Shown: positions 10,367 to 50,253 of the stretch, piece by piece
Position numbering within the stretch: the first letter of the stretch is position 1
Layout: each line of letters begins with the position of its first letter
Source of the DNA: Halobacterium noricense
GTDB taxonomy: Archaea > Halobacteriota > Halobacteria > Halobacteriales > Halobacteriaceae
Direction: 5' to 3'
DNA: 64,000 bases
Assembly (NCBI RefSeq): GCF_021233435.1
Contig: NZ_CP089469.1
Coordinates: 124,001 to 188,000, forward strand
Notes under the pieces: generated by a model
Database searches by the model: none
Told to the model about the DNA's origin: nothing
Seen by the model: only the letters and a program-made list of their open reading frames with translations
Position numbers and translations under genes: made by a program

Positions 10367-10613
10367 ATTCTAGATTAACTTCGAACCGGGTTGTAATCCT
10401 TTCCCTTCCAAGCAGGGTACCAAGAGAGCGAGAGGCACGTGCCACTCTGGATGAGGCTTATACGCGGAGCAGGCGCAATACCACGGCGTTCAGGCCGTGG
10501 ATACGCGCCGTCACTCAGTGACACCTTCCACCGATACCGACAGGGCTGGATATTCCACGCCAAACACAGCCTTTAATATACTCTATTCCATAACTAGTTA
10601 TGAACACAGTACG

Positions 10614-11870
10614 ATGCTGGAGACAACCCGCACCTACGTCGCACGCATCACGAACCACAGTCAGGTTCGTGACGATCTCGACCAGTGCGGGTTCTCAGCC
10701 TCGAAACTGTGGAATGTCGGACGCTACTACATCCAACAACGGTGGGATGAAGACGGTGAGATACCCGATGAAGCCGAACTGAAATCGGAGTTGAAAGACC
10801 ACGAACGCTATAGTGACCTGCATTCGCAGTCAAGTCAGCGAGTTCTCGAAGAGCTTGCTGAATCGTTCACCGGCTGGTACAACTCCGACGACGGCAACAA
10901 CCCACCGGGATACCGGAAACGTGGCGACCGACACCCACGCTCCACCGTGACGTGGAAACAGAAAGGCATCAAACACGACGATAAACACAGTCAACTCCGC
11001 CTCTCGAAAGGATGGAACCTGAAAGACGGACGGTCGGACTTCATCCTCGCGGAATACGAAACCCGACCCGACGTACAGGTGGAGAACATCCAGCAGGTGC
11101 GTGCCGTCTACAACGGCGACCGCTGGGAACTCCACCTCGTCTGCAAGAAAGAAATCCCAGTCGAGGACGCACCCGACGACAAGACGGCGGGGATTGACCT
11201 CGGTATCAGCAACTACCTTGCCATCGACTACGAGGACGGCCCTTCAGAGTTGTATCCGGGGAACACGCTGAAAGAAGACAAGCACTACTTCACCCGCGAG
11301 GAGTACCAGACTGAAGGCGAGAACGGGCCGTCGAAGCGGGCGTTGAAGACCCGTCGGAAACTCTCCCGGCGCAAAGACCACTTCCTCCATACGCTCTCGA
11401 AAAACATTATTCAACGGTGTGTCGAAGAAGGCGTGGAGAAGATCGCGGTAGGTGACCTTAGCGACATCCGCGAAGACGAGAATGGCGATTCGCGGAACTG
11501 GGGTGCGTCGGGGAACAAGAAACTCCACGGGTGGGAGTTCGACCGCTTCGTCCGTCTCCTTGAATACAAGGCCGAGGAATACGGCATCCTCGTTGACCGT
11601 GTGGACGAGGAGAATACGTCGAAGACGTGTTCGTGTTGCGGGCAGATTCGGGATACGAACCGTGTGGAGCGTGGGCTGTACGTCTGTTCGTCGTGCGAGA
11701 CGACGATGAACGCGGACGTCAATGGTGCAGTAAATATCCGGAGAAAGATAACTCAGAGTCCCCCGACAGGGGATATGAGTAACGGCTGGTTGGCACAGCC
11801 CGGAGTCTTCCTGTTCGACCGCGAGAGCGGACGGTTCACACCGAGAGAACAGGGAGACTACAAACCGTAA
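10614..11870 (+). CDS. TnpB (IS605 OrfB) RNA-guided nuclease homolog, with altered RuvC-II residue
   Basis: 418 residues from the ATG at 10614. An earlier in-frame start at 10497 would code through the left-end hairpin and is rejected. Domains: N-terminal wedge/REC region with GYRKRGDRHPRSTV, RuvC-I AGIDLGISNY (Asp195), RuvC-II IAVGDLSDIRED, a zinc ribbon (CSCC and CSSC near residues 339-361), and RuvC-III MNADVNGAVNI (Asp368). The usual RuvC-II glutamate (as in ..EDL) is Gly280 here. A downstream Glu in YKAEEYG (321-322) could be a relocated catalytic residue, as reported for rearranged TnpB/Fanzor sites. Otherwise the protein would be nuclease-dead. Confidence 0.85.
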   Translation: MLETTRTYVARITNHSQVRDDLDQCGFSASKLWNVGRYYIQQRWDEDGEIPDEAELKSELKDHERYSDLHSQSSQRVLEELAESFTGWYNSDDGNNPPGYRKRGDRHPRSTVTWKQKGIKHDDKHSQLRLSKGWNLKDGRSDFILAEYETRPDVQVENIQQVRAVYNGDRWELHLVCKKEIPVEDAPDDKTAGIDLGISNYLAIDYEDGPSELYPGNTLKEDKHYFTREEYQTEGENGPSKRALKTRRKLSRRKDHFLHTLSKNIIQRCVEEGVEKIAVGDLSDIREDENGDSRNWGASGNKKLHGWEFDRFVRLLEYKAEEYGILVDRVDEENTSKTCSCCGQIRDTNRVERGLYVCSSCETTMNADVNGAVNIRRKITQSPPTGDMSNGWLAQPGVFLFDRESGRFTPREQGDYKP

Positions 11871-11919
11871 TATCCCAACGCTCGGGATTCCTCCGCCTTC
11901 AGGCGGAGGAGGATGTCAA
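11871..11919 (+). ncRNA. Probable 3' end of TnpB guide (omega/re) RNA scaffold
   Basis: The right end downstream of the tnpB stop carries GCTCGGGATTC followed by the hairpin 11890-11909 and GAGGATGTCAA. In characterised TnpB systems the guide RNA is made from the 3' end of the element and its guide is the flanking sequence just beyond the right end. Here that guide would start at 11920 (CACCGACTACG...). The same 40-odd bases recur at the right end of the 514-bp element, which supports a functional RNA end. The transcript itself is inferred; its 5' end is unknown. Confidence 0.5.
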
Positions 11920-22775: not shown

Positions 22776-24164
22776 CAGTACCTCACAAAGCATCGCCGGC
22801 TAATCCGACTTGAGCCATCTGTTCTGTTGTGGTGAGTCGTCGATCACGGTTGAGCAACGCTGATCGAAGGCGGAGCTGTCGCTGTCGGCGGCGCTCAGCC
22901 GCCGACGCGACAGCGTTGCCACTTGCGGAGACGCCGTACTCGGTGGGTGACTACCGGTGGAACCGGTCGTCTGGTGGCCGGTTCGCGGGGACGGCCCGAC
23001 GCACCGCGAGGGCCGTCCACGCTGCCCGTCGAACCATATTCACGAACTCCTTGTACGGCCACCACCAGAGGCGACGCCCGCCTCGGCGCGGCGTCGCCAC
23101 GTATTCGTAGTGCAGATACCGCCACGTGTTCTGCAACAGCAGACTCACCACGACGTACAGCAGTCTCACCGTGGAGTCTCGCGTCGTTGTCGTCGCTATC
23201 GCTTGCTCAGACAACCGATAGCTCGACTCGATACCGAACCGTTTCGAGTAGTGGTATCGAGCGTCGCGTGGATTCTCGATGAACGGCGCGTCAGCGGCGT
23301 AGCCGTGACGCGCCACGCCGTGCTCGTCGTACCGTCCGTTCAGGTACGTACAGTCGATGTAGACGGGAAACTCGACGGTCCAGCTGTGACCGTCGAGTTT
23401 CCCCGTCAGATCGTGTTGGATGACGCGACTCCACCCTTCCGAGAGTTCCTGCTGAATCGCTTCACCCCACCGGATGATCGGGACAACGTAGGCGTAGTTG
23501 TGCGTCTGTAACAGCGTGAGACACTTGCTGTCGTAGAATCCGCGATCAAGATAGACGGCCTTGACGTCGGTGTCAAGGCCGTCGAGGACACCGAGGAACT
23601 CAGCGAGGACGCTGCTGGCGGTGTCGCCGTCTTCGAGACGGCGCACCGCCAGCGTGTAGCGTTTGTTCTTCACACGCGCGTAGAGTGTGGCGTAGGCGTG
23701 GAATGCGGTGGTTCCACGCTTGGCTTCCGAGTGATAGAGGTTCTCCGTGTCGTCTTCATCACCGTAGTAGGGCCGCAGGTGGAGGTCTGCGCAGACCTCC
23801 ACCTGCTCGGGGAGCAGTTCGACGATGTCTCGGCGAAGAAGCGTGTTAGCGACGCGTTCGAGCCGTTCCGGCTCGAACTTCGTCCGTAGATGATAGAGAA
23901 TCGTGTTCGCCGATGGGGAGTCTTCACTGGAGTTGCACAGCGTCGAGATCGAGGTCCCGTCGGCGGTCGCGCCGACGAGGACCTCGTAGATGTCCTCTGC
24001 ACCGATTTCAGCGTTGTTGGCGAGGTTGAGAGAAACTTCCTCGTCAAGGCAGTTGACGAGGAAGTTAAGGAGCTGGTCCTCGTGAATCTCACTGTCTGCT
24101 TGCTGGGTCGTAGACACACCTTCAGCAAGCAGACGTTCTAACTAAGCGGCTTTGTGATGTACTG
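22776..24164 (-). mobile_element. ISH3-family insertion sequence, copy b
   Basis: 1389 bp between CAGTACCTCACAAAGC at 22776 and its complement ending at 24164. The 5-bp target duplication ACTAT is at 22771-22775 and 24165-24169, so this is an intact insertion at the very end of IS630 copy 1. It is almost identical to copy d (48865-50253). The GC-rich hairpin is at 22880-22915. Confidence 0.95.
22951..24117 (-). CDS. ISH3-family transposase, copy b
   Basis: 388 residues. Same domain plan as copy a: N-terminal HEDQLLNFLVNCLDEEVSL, DDE core with VYLDRGFYDSKCLTLLQ, and KRFGIESSYRLSEQAIATTTT. It has GLDTDVKAVYLDRGF where copies a and d have GLDTEVKAV. It appears functional and probably supplies transposase for other copies. 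Confidence 0.95.
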   Translation of the reverse strand: MSTTQQADSEIHEDQLLNFLVNCLDEEVSLNLANNAEIGAEDIYEVLVGATADGTSISTLCNSSEDSPSANTILYHLRTKFEPERLERVANTLLRRDIVELLPEQVEVCADLHLRPYYGDEDDTENLYHSEAKRGTTAFHAYATLYARVKNKRYTLAVRRLEDGDTASSVLAEFLGVLDGLDTDVKAVYLDRGFYDSKCLTLLQTHNYAYVVPIIRWGEAIQQELSEGWSRVIQHDLTGKLDGHSWTVEFPVYIDCTYLNGRYDEHGVARHGYAADAPFIENPRDARYHYSKRFGIESSYRLSEQAIATTTTRDSTVRLLYVVVSLLLQNTWRYLHYEYVATPRRGGRRLWWWPYKEFVNMVRRAAWTALAVRRAVPANRPPDDRFHR

Positions 24165-30154: not shown

Positions 30155-31405
30155 TTAAATGCTCACGTTATTGACGTCAGCAAACCGGTCATCCTGGTGA
30201 ATAACTTGCTTAACGACCTCCGGATCTTCCATCAGGAAGTAGTAATGTGTAACACCTTGCCCGCGGCCACGACCGACGCGTTCAGACCGGCCAAGAATAT
30301 CAAGGAACACTTGTTCACCGAGCCGGTCAGCCATCCGCCGATGTGAGAGTGTATCCATATCTAAGAGTGCCGTAAGTTGCTTGTATACGTCGTATATCTG
30401 GCGTGTCGAAAATTCGCTGTCGTCAGGATTGTTGTCTGCGAGGAGTGAAAGAGAGTACACGGTGGCTTTAATCTGCGGTGGCTGCCCTTCGAGAAGTTGT
30501 GCGAACCGATCGATGTCCGCTTTCTCTCGTGCATCTCGAACGTGTTCCTCAAGGACTTGGTCCGCTCCAGCATCTTTGGCTAGCTCTCCCGCGTTACGAA
30601 GGATATCGAGCGCTTTCCGAGCATCACCGTGTTCTTGCGCAGCAAATGCAGCGCTTAATGGAATCACATCATCTGTGAGAACACCATCGTGGAACGCGTC
30701 AGACCGGTTATGCATGATATTTCGGAGTTGGTTAGCGTCGTATGGAGGAAATACGAATTCCCGGTCTTGCAGACTGCTGAGCACGCGTTCATCGAGCGTA
30801 TCTTTGAACGAGATCTTGTTACTAATGGCGATGATGCCGACTTTACAGGAGTCGACTTTCCCAGCTTCCCCGGCGCGTGACAGTTGCATTAGTATCTCGC
30901 TGTCTTTGAGTTTGTCAATCTCGTCGAGGATGATAACGGCAACATCGTACAGTTCGTCGAGGATATTCCAGAGTCGGTGGTAGTAGACGTCAGTTGAGAG
31001 TCCGGTAACGGGAATCGAGATGTTCGTTGCCTCTGGGCTGTTGAGGTTTCGAGCGATATTGATGACAACGCGGGTTTCCGTTGTGGATTGCGTGCAGTCG
31101 ATGTAGACACGCCCCATGTCTGTATCGTTGGTTTCAGCGAATTGCTTGGCGCTTTGTGTGACGTGTTTCGCTACGAGTGATTTCCCAGTCCCGGTTTTCC
31201 CGTAAATGAGTGTGTTTCGTGGGGATTTGCCACGGACTGCGGGGTGGATGCTGGAGGCAACGTCTTCGATTTCTTCGTCACGGCCGATGATTCGGTCTTC
31301 GTCGGGAATATGGTCGATGTCAAGGAGTTCTTTCCTGGCGAAGATGGCGTCCTCGCTCGCCCAGATGTCGTTGAGTGATTGTTGCGACCCGGTGTTATCG
31401 GCCAT
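30155..31405 (-). CDS. orc1/cdc6: Orc1/Cdc6 replication initiator
   Basis: 416 residues from the ATG at 31405 (MADNTGSQQ); an in-frame start at 31474 would read through an ORB and the TATA box and is rejected. AAA+ motifs: Walker A GKTGTGKS (69-76), Walker B VIILDEIDKL (about 157-166), sensor region VGIIAISNKISFKDTLDERVLSSL, and sensor 2 in EHGDARKALDILRNAG. A winged-helix domain follows (TRQIYDVYKQLTALLDMDTLSHRRMADRLGEQVF). It binds ORB repeats and recruits the MCM helicase. A TATA box (TTTATATGC, about 31425-31435, minus sense) predicts a leaderless mRNA. An ORB overlaps the start, so autoregulation is likely. Confidence 0.95.
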   Translation of the reverse strand: MADNTGSQQSLNDIWASEDAIFARKELLDIDHIPDEDRIIGRDEEIEDVASSIHPAVRGKSPRNTLIYGKTGTGKSLVAKHVTQSAKQFAETNDTDMGRVYIDCTQSTTETRVVINIARNLNSPEATNISIPVTGLSTDVYYHRLWNILDELYDVAVIILDEIDKLKDSEILMQLSRAGEAGKVDSCKVGIIAISNKISFKDTLDERVLSSLQDREFVFPPYDANQLRNIMHNRSDAFHDGVLTDDVIPLSAAFAAQEHGDARKALDILRNAGELAKDAGADQVLEEHVRDAREKADIDRFAQLLEGQPPQIKATVYSLSLLADNNPDDSEFSTRQIYDVYKQLTALLDMDTLSHRRMADRLGEQVFLDILGRSERVGRGRGQGVTHYYFLMEDPEVVKQVIHQDDRFADVNNVSI

Positions 31406-31423
31406 ACACTCGACACCCGGTTG
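31405..31423 (-). repeat. ORB-like repeat 3, overlapping the orc1 start
   Basis: In minus sense CAACCGGGTGTCGAGTGTA. It covers the orc1 transcription and translation start, downstream of the TATA box, so initiator binding here would repress its own gene. Confidence 0.6.
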
Positions 31424-31448
31424 AATGCATATAAATCCACAGGTCCCT

Positions 31449-31472
31449 CCACCCCAGGTGTCGAATGTAAAC
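31449..31472 (+). repeat. ORB-like repeat 4
   Basis: CACCCCAGGTGTCGAATGTA core, an exact match to the consensus, just upstream of the orc1 promoter. Confidence 0.75.
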
Positions 31473-31612
31473 ACCGAAAATCAGGACTTTTACGCCCTAT
31501 AGTCGGATTTAAGTGAAGTCTCCCACACCATCCGTCGGATGAAGATTGAGGGGCGGTCGTCGAGTGTAAACCGTGACATGTGTGGCAGTAATTACGGCAC
31601 GGTTCTGAGACA

Positions 31613-31639
31613 CCCACACCCCAGGTGTCGAATGTAAGT
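31613..31639 (+). repeat. ORB-like repeat 5
   Basis: CACCCCAGGTGTCGAATGTA core. A half-site GTCGAGTGTAAAC lies at about 31558-31570 between this copy and the previous one. Confidence 0.75.
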
Positions 31640-31870
31640 CCCTAAAATACCCAGGTAAAGACGCTTACAACGCTATACAGTATTAGTAGCAGATTACAGA
31701 TGATGTGGGGATTCCCAAAACAGGCTATACTAGGGGAAAGGTATAAGTCATTAGCAGTAAAACAATAACCGTACTGCAACAAAGTAAAAGAGAAAAGGAG
31801 CGGCTAGCTCCTTCTTTCTATTCTTCCAGAACAAAAACGCGAGTATCAGCCTGTCTCTCCTGCTTCTCGT
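31640..31870. other. Candidate duplex-unwinding region of the plasmid origin
   Basis: AT-rich relative to the surroundings, with many TA steps (CTATACAGTATTAGTAGC, GGTATAAGTCATTAGCAG). It lies between two ORB-like repeats of opposite orientation (31613-31639 plus, 31875-31901 minus), the arrangement seen at mapped haloarchaeal origins. Confidence 0.55.
31795..31813. terminator. Inverted repeat, possible terminator or origin structure
   Basis: AAGGAGC and GCTCCTT arms of 7 bp with a 5-bp loop, followed by a pyrimidine-rich run (CTTTCTATTCTTCC). It lies inside the origin region, so it may serve replication rather than termination. Confidence 0.35.
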
Positions 31871-31874
31871 ATGG

Positions 31875-31901
31875 ATTTACACTCGACACCTGGGGTGTGT
31901 G
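31875..31901 (-). repeat. ORB-like repeat 6, opposite orientation
   Basis: Minus-sense core CACCCCAGGTGTCGAGTGTA. It overlaps the first codons of the decayed parA frame (DLHSTPGV is simply its translation), which suggests the genuine parA start has been lost or lies elsewhere. Confidence 0.7.
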
Positions 31902-32382
31902 CCCGAGACCATCTATCTTTGAAGAGAAAATCTCTCTCCAGGAAACGTGAATCCGACAACGCTCAACCAATCCACGCCCAGCGGGAAGTTGCATTCCAAC
32001 GCGCGGGCCTAGACACGCTTGTCATCGACCTGGACCCACAAGAAGGGAACCTAACGACCCTCTTCGATGTCGGTGAACATCGCGGCGACCCAGACGCCGA
32101 CAACATCGTCCGACACATCCTCGAACGGCCAAAAGGTGAATTTGGAGATCTCATCGAGACCAGCAGCAAGGGTGTAGACATCGTTCCAAGTCACGACATG
32201 CTTGGTGATTTTACCAGCAATCTCGAGCAGAAGATCACCTACGAGGCACAGATGGAGAGCATGGACAGAGAAGACTACCCCCGGTTTGAACTCCTCCACG
32301 ACCTCCTCTGGAAGGAAGAACAACTGCAGAACAAGTACGGCGCTGTTCTGATCGACCCGAATGCTAGCAGAAGACCTGCTGT

Positions 32383-32896
32383 TTGACATCCTCCTCCGGC
32401 TGAAGGCGGAGGAATCCCGAGCGGTGGGAGTGACAGGTTTGCAACCACGGACGCCGCCACTTTACGGGAGTTCACATCTACCCCAGTCGTCGTGGTCGGT
32501 GGCTGTCTAGCCGTGCCAAGCGGCTGTTACTCCTATCCTCAGTGTCGGTGACTCCCAGCTGTTGTTTTTGCCAGTAGGGAGTCGCTGACACGTCAACGGA
32601 CCCGGAGGTATCGTCGGGCTTGCTCAGGCCGACGGGCACACGGCGAACCCTTCGAGGATTCGTGTTCACCGCGTCGGCGTTTCGGATACTGTCTCATTGA
32701 GTGGCGGATAGACCGCCTCCGAAGGACGGTTCGGAATCCGCTCCGTTCCGACCTGACCTTACCGACGTATAGCGGTCCTTGGAATTTGAATGTTAGGATT
32801 GGAAACTCGGCTCTGCTATTGACTGTGGAACGTGCCACTGAGTGACGGCGCGTATCCACGGCCTGAAGGCCGTGTGGTATTGCGCCGGTACAGCGT
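32383..32896 (-). mobile_element. 514-bp non-autonomous derivative of the IS1341-type tnpB element
   Basis: In minus orientation it has the same left end as the element at 10462 (ACGC, then GGCGCAATACCAC, the CCACGG hairpin, GATACGCGCCGTCACTCAGTG) and the same right end (GCTCGGGATTCCTCCGCC hairpin ...GGATGTCAA). No tnpB reading frame remains. Both copies are preceded by TTAT at the left end. The interior (about 420 bp) is not recognisable tnpB and may be a passenger or a diverged remnant. It was probably moved by TnpA/TnpB supplied in trans. It is a MITE-like element. Confidence 0.8.
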
Positions 32897-33422
32897 ATAA
32901 CTCAATTTTCGCGCTCCGAACACTCGTTGCGCCTGTCAAGCCAGCCGGAAAGGGGAATTTGAGCCTCGACGGCCTTGAACAACTGGTCACTGGAATGGAG
33001 GAGAAACTCGACATTCAGGTCGGGCTTTCCTGCGTCGTGCCGAGTGGCGTAGGACAAACGAACGCCCACCAGCAGTACCAGCGCAAATTCGACGCCACGG
33101 AGGAATTCGCGACGCCCGTCTCAATCGGTGACCGCGAAAGCATGATGGATGAAATGTGGGAAGCGCGTGGGTCTGCGTTCAAGGTCGTCGAAGAGCGCTG
33201 GAAAACCCACGAAGTCAACGGCGAGATGGTTTCCGAGCCGGGGCCGCGTCGCGTCTCCGACCGGGAACTGGAAACACTCGAGAAACTGTGGACTCTAGCG
33301 GCCTTCATCGCGACCGAAACCTTCGACGAGAACTTCGATGAGGAACTGCTGTTGAATATCACTGACCACGAGGACGTAACACTTCAGCCAGCACTCGGAA
33401 ACGAACCTGAGGTGACTAACTA

Positions 33423-33884
33423 ATGGGAGGCATGAAGAAGGGCTCTGGTGATCTGAGCTTCGAGGATGACTCTAAGGGCAACGAGGAAACTGACGCCAAG
33501 AGTCAGTCCGGAGAAGCCCCCACAGCCACCCCCGAACAGGACGCCGACACGACATCGACCGGCTCCAGCGACTCCGACAACACTGGTAGCGTGACAGACG
33601 CATCGTCTGAAACTGAGAGTGATTCGGCCGAAGAGTCACCAACATACCCTTACTTCGTGCGGCGGAGTAACGTCGGCGATGAGCGCGACACGCGACTGGA
33701 AATCCATGTTCGCGACGATGTTGCAGACACCGAGACCGAGTTCCTCAATAACCTCGCGGAAGAGCTTGGGACGACTGACGTGGCGAAAACGGACGCACGA
33801 GAGTATGCTCTGGTGCTCGCTCACGAGCGGCCGGAACTCGTCGCCGAGTTGATGCAGGAAGACGGCTACGGAGAACTTGATTGA
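33423..33884 (+). CDS. Acidic plasmid protein downstream of parA, possible partition partner
   Basis: 153 residues. Its ATG overlaps the parA stop by one base (TAATG), so the two were translationally coupled. The first 75 residues are a low-complexity Asp/Glu/Ser/Thr stretch. The rest is a compact domain, YPYFVRRSNVGDERDTRLEIHVRDDVADTETEFLNNLAEELGTTDVAKTDAREYALVLAHERPELVAELMQEDGYGELD. The pattern resembles haloarchaeal proteins found behind plasmid parA genes, which may take the place of ParB. DNA binding is not demonstrated. With parA broken, its role now is unclear. Confidence 0.7.
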   Translation: MGGMKKGSGDLSFEDDSKGNEETDAKSQSGEAPTATPEQDADTTSTGSSDSDNTGSVTDASSETESDSAEESPTYPYFVRRSNVGDERDTRLEIHVRDDVADTETEFLNNLAEELGTTDVAKTDAREYALVLAHERPELVAELMQEDGYGELD

Positions 33885-34552: not shown

Positions 34553-35671
34553 CTAAAGCGGTGGGGTTGTCAGTGGACTCCCGCTCTGGCCGATACTCTC
34601 GGCAGGCGAATAGTCGCCGTTCGCGTTCAGCGTCCCTGACTTCAGCGCAACCTGACAGTTTGCGCGTCCAGCACCAGACTTGAGCCAGTGCTGGAGAAGC
34701 CGCCACCCGATATTCCGGGCGGCATTATAGTCGGCGTGCAGTTCCTTCCCACAGTTCAGGCACTCGAAGTCGTCACCATCACGATTGTCCTCATGCGTGA
34801 ACCCGCACGCTGCGTGGCTGCACCGCTGACTCGTGTACGCCGGCTCAACCGACTCCACCAGTATCCCGTGCTCTTCGGCTTTGTACTCGGTGTACTCCTG
34901 GATCGTGCGGAACGCCCACTGCTGGAATTTACTGGCGTTCGAAATACGGTCACGAATCTGCTCGAGATCCTCGAACGCAATAGCCGAACAGTCATGGCGG
35001 CGCGCTTCTTGCACGATGGCTTTCGAGACACGGTGGAGATAATCCTCACTCCAGCGTGAGAACCGTGATCCAATACTCTGGATGGTGAGGTGGGCGGACC
35101 GAGTGCCAGTCTGTTGCAGACGACCACGCCGTCGTTCGTACTCGCTGCGCTTGTGGTTGAGGGAGTCCGCATTCCCGAGGAACGCGCCCGTACTGGTGAC
35201 AGCAAGCGAGCCATCAACGTTGAGGTCAACGCCGAGAACCGCTCCGTTCTCGACTGCTGACGCATCCGTCTCTAGTTCCTTCTCGACGGCGACGTGGAGG
35301 TAGTACTCGCCGTCACGCTTGTGGAGAGTTGCCTCGTTGCGTTCCCACTCCTCACTATCCCAATACTCCGCAAACGGCGTGCCTTCGTCGTCCTCAGGCG
35401 TCACGTATTCCGCGCGAATGCGGCCATCGACGGTGGCAAGCGTACAGTGGTCGTCGTTGTACGTAATGGTGCGGACGCTGTACACGAGGACCGTCCCGCG
35501 GAAGGTGGGCTTGCTTGCGGGTTCGCCCTCGAAGATGCGATCTTGGCAGTTCGAAAGAGCGTTAGCCGCGAGGCTGCGCGCTGACTGAACATGGTTGGAG
35601 TGCAGCTCCGTGTCCTCGCGCACGTCGTCATAGGTGGCGGCGTTGAGGTCACCCTGGTCAGTAATAATCTC
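34553..35671 (-). pseudogene. TnpB (IS605 OrfB), main part, disrupted by ISH3 copy c
   Basis: The frame runs from the ISH3 junction (ITDQGDLNAATYDDVREDTELHSNHVQSARSLAANAL) to a stop at 34553. RuvC residues are all present: Asp in LGVDLNVDGS, Glu in AIAFEDLEQIRD, Asp in LHADYNAARNIGW. The zinc ribbon is in RCSHAACGF and FECLNCGKE. The N-terminal 46 codons (GTG at 37209: AVVRNIQVKLDVPDGAHSVLDETFEQFRYAAQSVAEYGWADDPTEI) lie beyond ISH3 at 37070-37209. The join across the AATCT duplication is in frame. So the nuclease was intact until ISH3 arrived. Confidence 0.85.
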
Positions 35672-37069
35672 AGTACCTCACAAAGCATCCACAGCTAGCT
35701 GTTTCTGCGGCCTAAGTTCTGTCTCGAAGCGGTTGTACTGATGGTCTCGATGAGATGATTACGGACGGATCGACGGAGAGCTGTCGCTGTCGGCGGCGGT
35801 CAGCCGCCGACGCGACAGCGTTGCCACTCACTTTGCTGGCTTGCTCGGTCGGTGGTTAGCGGTGGAACCGGTCGTCAGGTGGCCGATTCGCGGGGACGGC
35901 CCGACGCACCGCGAGGGCCGTCCACGCAGCTCGTCGAACCATATTGACGAACTCCTTGTACGGCCACCACCAGAGGCGACGCCCGCCTCGGCGGGGCGTC
36001 GCCACATACTCGTAGTGAAGGTACCGCCAGACGTTCTGTAATAGCAGACTCACCACGACGTACAGCAGCCGTACCGTTGGATCTCGTGTGGTTGTTGTCG
36101 CTATCGCTTGTTCAAACAATCGATAGCTCGACTCGATACCGAACCGCTTGGTGTAGTGGTATCGAGCGTCGCGTGGTGAGTCGATGAACGGCGCGTCAGC
36201 GGCGTAGCCGTGACGCGCCACACCGTTCTCGTCATACTTCCCGTTTAGGTACGTACAGTCGATGTAGACGGGAAACTCGACGGTCCAGCTGTGGCCGTCG
36301 AGTTTCCCTGTCAGATCGTGCTGAATGACACGACTCCACCCTTCCGAGAGCTCTTGCTGAATCGTCTCACCCCACCGGATGATTGGGATCACGTACGCGT
36401 AGTCGTGCGTCTGAAGCAGCGTGAGGCACTTGCTGTCGTAGAATCCGCGATCAAGGTAGACGGCCTTGATCTCGGTGTCAAGGCCGTCGAGAATACCGAG
36501 GAACTCAGCGAGGACGCTGCTGGCGGTGTCGCCGTCTTCGAGACGGCGCACCGCCAGCGTGTAGCGTTTGTTCGTCACACGCGCGTAGAGTGTGGCGTAG
36601 GCGTGGAACGCGGTGGTTCCACGCTTCGCTACCGAGTGATAGAGACCGTCTGTGTCGGCTTTGTCACCGTAGTAGGGTCGCAGGTGGAGGTCTGCGCAGA
36701 CCTCCACCTGCTTGGGGAGCAGTTCATCGATATCCTTCCGAAGGAGCGTGTTAGCGACTCGTTCGAGCCGTTCCGGCTCGAACTTCGTCCGAAGATGGTA
36801 GAGGATCGTGTTCGCAGTGGGTGTATTCTGGCTCGACGCACAGAGCGTAGAGACAGAGGTCCCGTCGGCGCAAGCGCCGACGAGGACCTCATAGATGTCC
36901 TCAGCAGCGATTTCAGCGTTATTTGCTAAAGAGATTGGAACTTCCTCGTCAAGGCGGTTGACGAGAAAGTTAAGAAGTTGGTCCTCGTGAATCTCACCGT
37001 CTGCTTGCTTGTTGGAGTACACATCCTCAGCAAGCAGACGTTCTAACTAACCGGCTTTGTGAAGTACTG
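35672..37069 (-). mobile_element. ISH3-family insertion sequence, copy c (innermost of a nested set)
   Basis: 1398 bp, CAGTACCTCACAAAGC at 35672 to ...GAAGTACTG at 37069. Target duplication AATCT at 35667-35671 and 37070-37074. It is inserted in tnpB. It is the most diverged of the four copies. The conserved GC-rich hairpin is at 35785-35820. Confidence 0.95.
35856..37022 (-). CDS. ISH3-family transposase, copy c
   Basis: 388 residues, full length. It differs from the other copies at many sites (NRLDEEVPISLANNAEIAAEDIYEVLVGACADGTSVSTLCASSQNTPTANTILYHL), yet the catalytic blocks VYLDRGFYDSKCLTLLQTHDYAYVIP and KRFGIESSYRLFEQAIATTTTRD are kept. It is a separate ISH3 subtype. Confidence 0.95.
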   Translation of the reverse strand: MYSNKQADGEIHEDQLLNFLVNRLDEEVPISLANNAEIAAEDIYEVLVGACADGTSVSTLCASSQNTPTANTILYHLRTKFEPERLERVANTLLRKDIDELLPKQVEVCADLHLRPYYGDKADTDGLYHSVAKRGTTAFHAYATLYARVTNKRYTLAVRRLEDGDTASSVLAEFLGILDGLDTEIKAVYLDRGFYDSKCLTLLQTHDYAYVIPIIRWGETIQQELSEGWSRVIQHDLTGKLDGHSWTVEFPVYIDCTYLNGKYDENGVARHGYAADAPFIDSPRDARYHYTKRFGIESSYRLFEQAIATTTTRDPTVRLLYVVVSLLLQNVWRYLHYEYVATPRRGGRRLWWWPYKEFVNMVRRAAWTALAVRRAVPANRPPDDRFHR

Positions 37070-37209
37070 AATCTCGGTTGGGTCGTCGGCCCAGCCATAC
37101 TCCGCGACGGACTGGGCGGCGTAGCGAAACTGCTCGAACGTCTCGTCGAGGACGCTGTGAGCGCCGTCGGGCACGTCGAGTTTCACTTGGATGTTCCGAA
37201 CGACCGCCA
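37070..37209 (-). pseudogene. TnpB N-terminal fragment, separated by ISH3 copy c
   Basis: First 46 codons of the TnpB at 34553-35671, starting at GTG 37209. An AT-rich TTAAATTTTTAAG upstream (near 37237) is a likely promoter. Confidence 0.8.
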
Positions 37210-37351
37210 CACCTCATATGGGTATCTGGAATTACTTAAAAATTTAAGTCCGAATTGGGGAGTCAGCCGGGCTATCGTCAGTGGACTGTTGAGTAAAGCG
37301 GACGCGCTGCCTCCCACCCCTGAAGCGGTGGGTTTCCGCGCTGCTTCCGCT

Positions 37352-48864: not shown

Positions 48865-50253
48865 CAGTACCTCACAAAGCATCGCCGGCTAATCCGACTT
48901 GAGCCATCTGTTCTGTTGTGGTGAGTCGTCGATCACGGTTGAGCAACGCTGATCGAAGGCGGAGCTGTCGCTGTCGGCGGCGCTCAGCCGCCGACGCGAC
49001 AGCGTTGCCACTTGCGGAGACGCCGTACTCGGTGGGTGACTACCGGTGGAACCGGTCGTCTGGTGGCCGGTTCGCGGGGACGGCCCGACGCACCGCGAGG
49101 GCCGTCCACGCTGCCCGTCGAACCATATTCACGAACTCCTTGTACGGCCACCACCAGAGGCGACGCCCGCCTCGGCGCGGCGTCGCCACGTATTCGTAGT
49201 GCAGATACCGCCACGTGTTCTGCAACAGCAGACTCACCACGACGTACAGCAGTCTCACCGTGGAGTCTCGCGTCGTTGTCGTCGCTATCGCTTGCTCAGA
49301 CAACCGATAGCTCGACTCGATACCGAACCGTTTCGAGTAGTGGTATCGAGCGTCGCGTGGATTCTCGATGAACGGCGCGTCAGCGGCGTAGCCGTGACGC
49401 GCCACGCCGTGCTCGTCGTACCGTCCGTTCAGGTACGTACAGTCGATGTAGACGGGAAACTCGACGGTCCAGCTGTGACCGTCGAGTTTCCCCGTCAGAT
49501 CGTGTTGGATGACGCGACTCCACCCTTCCGAGAGTTCCTGCTGAATCGCTTCACCCCACCGGATGATCGGGACAACGTAGGCGTAGTTGTGCGTCTGTAA
49601 CAGCGTGAGACACTTGCTGTCGTAGAATCCGCGATCAAGATAGACGGCCTTGACCTCGGTGTCAAGGCCGTCGAGTACACCAAGGAACTCAGCGAGGACG
49701 CTGCTGGCGGTGTCGCCGTCTTCGAGACGGCGCACCGCCAGCGTGTAGCGTTTGTTCTTCACACGCGCGTAGAGTGTGGCGTAGGCGTGGAATGCGGTGG
49801 TTCCACGCTTGGCTTCCGAGTGATAGAGGTTCTCCGTGTCGTCTTCATCACCGTAGTAGGGCCGCAGGTGGAGGTCTGCGCAGACCTCCACCTGCTCGGG
49901 GAGCAGTTCGACGATGTCTCGGCGAAGAAGCGTGTTAGCGACGCGTTCGAGCCGTTCCGGCTCGAACTTCGTCCGTAGATGATAGAGAATCGTGTTCGCC
50001 GATGGGGAGTCTTCACTGGAGTTGCACAGCGTCGAGATCGAGGTCCCGTCGGCGGTCGCGCCGACGAGGACCTCGTAGATGTCCTCTGCACCGATTTCAG
50101 CGTTGTTGGCGAGGTTGAGAGAAACTTCCTCGTCAAGGCAGTTGACGAGGAAGTTAAGGAGCTGGTCCTCGTGAATCTCACTGTCTGCTTGCTGGGTCGT
50201 AGACACACCTTCAGCAAGCAGACGTTCTAACTAAGCGGCTTTGTGATGTACTG
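48865..50253 (-). mobile_element. ISH3-family insertion sequence, copy d
   Basis: 1389 bp, CAGTACCTCACAAAGC at 48865 to ...ATGTACTG at 50253. Flanking 5-mers ATAAT and AGTGT do not match, so there is no target duplication and the flanks come from different places. It is nearly identical to copy b. Hairpin at 48969-49004. Confidence 0.95.
49040..50206 (-). CDS. ISH3-family transposase, copy d
   Basis: 388 residues, the same as copy b except GLDTEVKAV (copy b has GLDTDVKAV). All catalytic blocks are intact. Homologous recombination between copies b and d could delete or duplicate the intervening 26 kb. Confidence 0.95.
   Translation of the reverse strand: MSTTQQADSEIHEDQLLNFLVNCLDEEVSLNLANNAEIGAEDIYEVLVGATADGTSISTLCNSSEDSPSANTILYHLRTKFEPERLERVANTLLRRDIVELLPEQVEVCADLHLRPYYGDEDDTENLYHSEAKRGTTAFHAYATLYARVKNKRYTLAVRRLEDGDTASSVLAEFLGVLDGLDTEVKAVYLDRGFYDSKCLTLLQTHNYAYVVPIIRWGEAIQQELSEGWSRVIQHDLTGKLDGHSWTVEFPVYIDCTYLNGRYDEHGVARHGYAADAPFIENPRDARYHYSKRFGIESSYRLSEQAIATTTTRDSTVRLLYVVVSLLLQNTWRYLHYEYVATPRRGGRRLWWWPYKEFVNMVRRAAWTALAVRRAVPANRPPDDRFHR

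Follow-up and report, generated by a model that had tools for sequence, protein, structure and literature searches.

The window analysed here, a stretch of 64,000 nucleotides of Halobacterium noricense (contig NZ_CP089469.1), contains a 514-bp element without a gene, which lies on the minus strand inside a parA pseudogene, and a related solo tnpB element on the plus strand (Table 1). The bounds given for the small element in a preliminary description, made from the letters alone, were found to be exact when the ends were read directly. The left end, ACGCTGTACCGGCGCAATACC on the minus strand, adjoins TTAT (plus-strand ATAA at 32897-32900), and the right end is ...GATGTCAA at 32383 (GGAGGATGTCAA in a longer reading of the terminus), with TCAA as the final bases. 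The tnpB element showed the same order of parts, with TTAT followed by ACGCGGAGCAGGCGCAATACC and the terminus GATGTCAA, and its ORF matched Cas12f1-like_TNB (E 7e-24) and OrfB_IS605 (E 2e-19). That both ends, including both hairpins, are common to the two elements was confirmed by direct reading and by nhmmer with a profile of 63 relatives of the small element, of which positions 2-101 matched the left end of the tnpB element (window 10463-10562, E 5e-16) and positions 328-512 its last 174 bp (E 5e-25).

The small element was assigned to the PATEs, a known class of which two genomes of Haloquadratum walsbyi carry 177 and 194 copies (PMC3119063), and the earlier statement that such elements are rarely mapped in archaea was not supported. 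At 514 bp it is too short for a transposase, and it is non-coding, with frames broken between copies; near-terminal palindromes of the IS605 type were present and terminal inverted repeats were not. The insertion was strain-specific, with occupied and empty versions of one locus; the target oligonucleotide is specific (TTAT), and the empty site showed no target duplication. No TnpA or TnpB gene was found inside the PATE bounds in 119 loci examined. The element is a non-autonomous relative of the TnpB element, as had been proposed. Assignment to the MITEs was rejected, as the terminal inverted repeats of a DDE-type transposon were absent and the ends differed (ACGC... and ...GTCAA).

Table 1. 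Coordinates of the PATE, its parts and related features in the window.
Feature	Position	Strand	Evidence
PATE, whole element, 514 bp (left end 32896, right end 32383)	32383..32896	-	ends read directly, relatives, empty site
TTAT target site and presumed TnpB TAM, outside the PATE	32897..32900	-	read directly
PATE left end with subterminal hairpin, homologous to tnpB-element left end	32797..32896	-	nhmmer
PATE-specific core, ~225 bp, with covarying helices and near-invariant blocks	32571..32796	-	profile, Rfam, covariation
Omega-RNA (sotRNA) module, ~187 nt, border approximate	32383..32570	-	nhmmer, Rfam sot0042, covariation
Covarying hairpin AGCCG-C-TTGGCA-CGGCT	32509..32525	-	covariation
PATE right-end hairpin	32392..32413	-	read directly; covariation
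Terminal TGTCAA, transposon-encoded motif immediately 5' of guide position	32383..32388	-	covariation
Predicted guide, first 16 nt of flanking DNA past right end	32367..32382	-	TnpB/omega-RNA architecture (PMC8612924)
parA pseudogene split by PATE (31871-32382 + 32897-33423)	31871..33423	+	tblastn, alignment to pSTJ003
Related solo tnpB element, ORF 10497-11870, TTAT immediately 5'	10462..11919	+	Pfam, nhmmer
Omega RNA (sot0042) of related tnpB element, above gathering score	11746..11910	+	98.5 bits

Insertion site and copies in the genome

The empty site was reached by tblastn with the upstream part of ParA, which led to pSTJ003, a plasmid of Halobacterium hubeiense that has an uninterrupted ParA and is 97-98% identical to the window on both sides of the insertion. 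In pSTJ003 the site consists of GACCTGCTGT followed directly by ATAACTCAAT, and alignment of the joined flanks gave a junction with no base lost, added or duplicated. The preliminary description had held that excision restores LLYNSIFAL of ParA; the junction is indeed exact and these residues are right locally, but the gene as a whole is not repaired. Compared with pSTJ003, the window parA lacks 2 nt at a distance of 15 nt from the PATE, and a larger deletion of ~550 bp has taken away about the first 23 codons, including the nucleotide-binding motif SGGTFKTTTT. Because of these two lesions besides the PATE it is a pseudogene, and its halves stay in different frames even after joining. The 2-nt deletion (window 32366-32369) falls within the distance of 15-21 bp from the TAM at which TnpB cuts, and may be a repair scar predating the insertion, or a coincidence. 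Across window 30155-33423 the decayed parA with its PATE lies beside orc1/cdc6, with a flank up to 99.8% identical to pSTJ003, and the site is a former plasmid replication/partition locus.

A second precise insertion was found in Halorubrum rubrum, in which another PATE lies inside tnpB and the joined flanks gave one continuous TnpB match over residues 16-421. Plasmids searched for the empty site of the second own-genome copy, and with the flank of locus L064, gave no match.

The full 514-bp element was found again on the same replicon (C2) at other sites, bounded by TTAT...TCAA, once at C2:301255 with 81% identity and, with 72% identity, at C2:198831 and C2:44748 (BLAST E 1e-127 and 6e-56). 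The latter two were counted as one insertion because both lie in identical segments. Accidental recurrence of the whole anatomy is negligible. The flanks differed between copies, as expected of a transposon, and TTAT was kept, so the objection from differing flanks that the preliminary description had raised against itself does not apply. A direct duplication of ~20 kb or more was observed in the replicon (C2:187651-207857 equals C2:34014-53774, offset ~154,083 bp), from 63651 of the window onward, and loci L003 and L004 shared 3,515 identical bases.

Four full-length TnpA genes and ~35 TnpB genes were counted in the genome, in agreement with the proposed dependence on proteins in trans; with TnpA genes present, the PATE would presumably be moved in trans. 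A TnpA+TnpB element at C2:106-108 kb ends in GGTCAA, not TGTCAA. Near the PATE, a second tnpB (Cas12f1-like_TNB) lies ~1.7 kb away on the minus strand (window 34553-35623), and a hairpin-bearing, left-end-like sequence at 37193-37339 (minus strand), perhaps a relic, weakly matched PATE profile positions 12-151 (E 2e-4). Three ORFs of equal length (388 aa) on the minus strand, at window 22951-24117, 35856-37022 and 49040-50206, had no Pfam match and are probably copies of one insertion sequence.

Core and omega-RNA module of the interior

The consensus of 63 non-redundant PATEs (median pairwise identity 69%) divided the element into a left end (~1-100), a core (~101-326) and an omega-RNA module (~327-513). 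The core contained the near-invariant blocks GGTCGGAACGGAGCGGATTCCGAAC and GGAGGCGGCCTGTCCGCC. It gave no profile match to the searched tnpB loci of its own genome, belonged to no Rfam family, and lay within a tnpB element at none of the 199 loci inspected; tnpB genes near PATEs were either separate from the PATE or interrupted by it. Covariation was pronounced, with 102 double-change cells in the core compared with 37 in shuffles (0/500) and at most 16 in slid controls, and in two core helices 6 of 7 and 5 of 7 pairs were changed on both sides. Of 59 elements, 56 have the TATA-like octamer GTTYAAGT 37-39 nt 5' of the conserved block, and this spacing would place a transcription start near the block. 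The 379-nt PATE RNA folded better than all of 100 shuffles (z-score -3.5).

The module of the window PATE matched the Rfam family sot0042 at 32392-32593 (31.7 bits, E 1.5e-6), below the gathering score of 88, and all ten PATEs tested gave a match (E 1e-11 to 1e-4, 32-55 bits), each also under 88; by these scores the modules are diverged sot0042 homologues and not formal members. The family represents a sense-overlapping transcript of haloarchaea that is today identified with the omega RNA of TnpB, and the omega-RNA features of Halobacterium include a pseudoknot between a hairpin loop and the terminal motif as well as a right-end hairpin (PMC12558985). In the PATEs, the hairpin with the loop TTGGCA was paired in 99.6% of cells and 4 of its 5 pairs were changed on both sides, with stems AGCCG/CGGCT, GGCGG/CCGCC, GGCCA/TGGCC and GGGGG/CTCCC, the tnpB elements having GGCTG/CAGCC. 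Pairing between this loop and the terminal TGTCAA is possible in 99.3% of cells, with one compensatory case (UUGGCG/CGUCAA), and the right-end hairpin was paired in 96.3% of cells, with 5 of 9 pairs changed on both sides. A long stem reads CAGCCAC/GTGGTTG in one PATE group and CAGTCCA/TGGACTG in the other, and as it is out of register between the two groups in alignment A1, its pair counts (65%) understate it. The module as a whole held 79 double-change cells compared with 26.5 in shuffles (0/500) and at most 30 in slid controls; the shuffles keep relatedness and the slid controls remove it, and the margin was large. When the commonest-GU columns were excluded, the ratio of G-U to A-C cells was 46:28 in the core and 17:8 in the module, a modest excess that leans to same-strand RNA rather than DNA.

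The module thus laid out has the general architecture of an omega RNA, with the loop/terminal-motif pseudoknot, the right-end hairpin, a guide position directly 3' and a TAM-bearing target, and the predicted guide matches the empty site adjoining TTAT. The PATE RNA would be transcribed, bound by TnpB and used to guide cleavage. In tnpB elements the same stretch also serves as the 3' end of the gene. In the PATEs the TnpB reading frame of the module was broken, differently between copies, and no TnpB C-terminus was detected by tblastn in the PATE interior, protein being read only from the left end. The suggestion that the 514 bp are coding sequence, either belonging to a longer parA or forming a small gene of their own, can practically be dismissed: short open frames are present, as in any GC-rich DNA, but the homologous parA of pSTJ003 lacks the 514 bp, the frames are broken differently between copies, and the variation follows RNA pairing. 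The interior is not filler, nor did it arise simply by a deletion within tnpB; it consists of a conserved PATE-only core and an omega-RNA module, which had been missed earlier.

Distribution of the family

Dozens of near-full-length relatives were found in a scan of 392 Halobacteriales genomes, and the core was present in 112 of these, representing 49 of 95 genera. A 21-base word of the core, searched in GTDB genomes, occurred among the matches listed in haloarchaea only, with one exception in a Bacteroidota bin (L192), which is without PATE homology and was taken as chance. The phage collection and viral contigs searched contained no relatives of the window PATE. Most copies were 491-521 bp long, typically near 510 bp, some being longer with a short inserted repeat, and the right end was almost always GATGTCAA. 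The family is one old lineage of single origin.

TTAT, which had been proposed as target and TAM, was examined with type-A left ends anchored by a position-weight scan on element bases 7-38 and hence independently of TTAT. It was found at 55 of 63 such ends (51 at the expected place, four shifted by one base), and the remaining eight were each one mismatch off. At type-B left ends it was found in 17 of 19, but TTAT had helped to place those starts. The type-B PATEs (L069-L073, L077, L120-L133) have a different left end, TTAT followed by ACAGAATCAAGGAGAATACCTGCGG, with the same core and omega module; since this end sits on the same interior, PATE ends and interior have recombined.

A TnpA match was obtained in 100 of the 112 core-bearing genomes and in 159 of the 280 others (odds ratio 6.3, kinship ignored); among the 12 core-bearing genomes without one, some are incomplete drafts. 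Matches to sot0042 above the cut-off were found in ~88 of the 112 genomes and in about half of the others, an approximate count made by E-value. As about one fifth of the core-bearing genomes had no such sot0042 match and 12 no TnpA match, a matching partner was not always visible.

The homology to the tnpB element, which covers the left end and the final ~187 bp of the PATE, would also suit a dead remnant formed by deletion of the middle of a tnpB element, like the terminal-only elements of Haloquadratum. This origin, already disfavoured, is very improbable, because remnants formed locally would not have a common core, and the core is absent from the tnpB elements of the own genome, occurs in 49 genera at a constant element length of ~510 bp, and shows compensatory changes.

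Proposed mechanism and relation to known systems

In IS200/IS605 elements, TnpA cuts the element out as a single-stranded circle and integrates it 3' to a short motif, whereas TnpB, with an RNA derived from the right end, cuts 15-21 bp from the same motif and so favours recopying of the element into the vacated site (PMC8612924). In bacteria, this copying back acts as a drive on plasmids (PMC11870625). We consider it probable that TnpA acting in trans moves the PATE and that TnpB, likewise supplied in trans, retains it by means of a guide that the PATE itself provides. As an element of the IS200/IS605 type without a gene, it would leave its site in single-stranded form and be inserted 3' to TTAT, both steps being carried out by TnpA. 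An RNA of ~370 nt, reading out of the core and across the right end, would have the first flanking bases as its guide and be loaded into a TnpB such as that of the 10462-11919 element, which has the same ends, TAM and scaffold. The loaded TnpB would then cleave sister or homologous molecules at their empty TTAT site, and repair would copy the PATE back. The model is favoured because the PATE has cis parts for both proteins (end hairpins, TTAT, omega scaffold and guide position), because TnpA and TnpB genes are present in its own genome, and because TnpA and sot0042 co-occur with the core; within the model, the role of the core, transcription, TnpB binding and cleavage are inferred. On the other side of the balance are the sot0042 scores under the cut-off in all PATEs matched, the core-bearing genomes with no visible partner, a share of the covariation that could come from folding of single-stranded DNA, and the differing terminus (GGTCAA) of the TnpA+TnpB element.

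It is unlikely that TnpA alone, which suffices for IS200/IS605 transposition (PMC8612924), accounts for the PATE, with the structured interior protecting or shaping the excised circle as single-stranded DNA, or carried as a passenger, and TnpB having no part. The association of the core with TnpA across genomes would fit, and covarying stems can also be formed by DNA strands, the excess of G-U over A-C being modest. However, an omega-RNA covariance model recognises the 3' module, in which the loop/terminal-motif pairing is kept, and the spacing between the TATA-like motif and the conserved block is constant. Known TnpA binding requires only the end hairpins, and an interior of 370 nt is not needed for it.

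A PATE RNA that binds TnpB as a decoy or regulator, or has a regulatory role for host or plasmid, instead of guiding cleavage of its own empty site, appears quite unlikely. In its favour, decoy functions have been suggested for archaeal circular omega RNAs (PMC12558985), and the omega module of the PATE has ~225 nt of additional, PATE-only core on its 5' side. Nevertheless, the PATE is a precisely bounded mobile element at scattered sites, unlike a fixed host gene, and the terminal motif kept exactly at the guide boundary fits guiding better.

Returning to the model with both TnpA and TnpB in trans, we tentatively suggest, as a possible history, a guide-only transposon lineage of haloarchaea, in which tnpB was lost long ago while a dedicated guide RNA of ~370 nt, with a new structured core, was retained and developed further, and in which the element parasitises TnpA of other elements for movement and their TnpB for homing back into empty sites. 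The core may help the PATE to compete for TnpB.

TnpB is the ancestor of Cas12, and because its guide RNA overlaps its own gene, constraints on RNA and protein are hard to separate. A widespread tnpB-less family with an independently conserved RNA separates the two, and gives a direct way to test whether TnpB can serve other elements in trans. If TnpB drives copying into empty sites, as shown for bacterial plasmids (PMC11870625), an element in polyploid haloarchaea would benefit strongly. The omega-RNA content would also account for the long interiors of PATEs that lack genes, and it supplies a naturally occurring guide-RNA architecture.

Altae-Tran and co-workers reportedly described in 2021 stand-alone, trans-acting omega RNAs of IscB, in which the guide RNA is encoded apart from the nuclease gene. 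Those RNAs belong to IscB, whereas the PATE RNA sits between intact transposon ends and would use TnpB. The haloarchaeal tnpB elements with sotRNA (PMC12558985) resemble the PATE in the left end, right-end hairpin, hairpin with pseudoknot and TTAT, but encode TnpB over the omega RNA, while the PATE has its own core in place of the gene. A PATE-like element of Halanaerobium hydrogeniformans (271 nt; PMC7290912) is likewise gene-less, with a left-end hairpin, the terminal 58 nt of tnpB and a complete right end; unlike the PATE it is a single copy and a plain deletion product, with no conserved core of its own reported. The PATE of the Halorubrum tailed virus HRTV-DL1 (489 bp; PMC10544981) is strongly transcribed over its 3' ~300 bp, nearly all in one direction. 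It was rejected as a transcribed homologue, since OP630574 gave no significant match to the PATE profile, nor sot0042 among its Rfam matches, and the core is different.

The literature searched gave no description of omega RNAs in PATEs, although priority is not certain; new here, by sequence comparison, are the omega-RNA module and the PATE-specific covarying core in a known class. The HqIRS PATEs of H. walsbyi, to which our family is likened by description, are also non-coding, without terminal inverted repeats or target duplication, with IS605-related near-terminal palindromes, a specific target oligonucleotide and transposase in trans, and HqIRS71 retains a C-terminal tnpB segment with broken frames (PMC3119063). 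That paper predates omega RNA and draws no such link to PATEs, and the covarying core and omega-RNA module are what the window family adds. Palindrome-rich inserts of ~50-60 bp were observed inside the cores of L079, L084, L085, L133 and L249, and they resemble the small mobile repeats of Haloquadratum that target PATEs.
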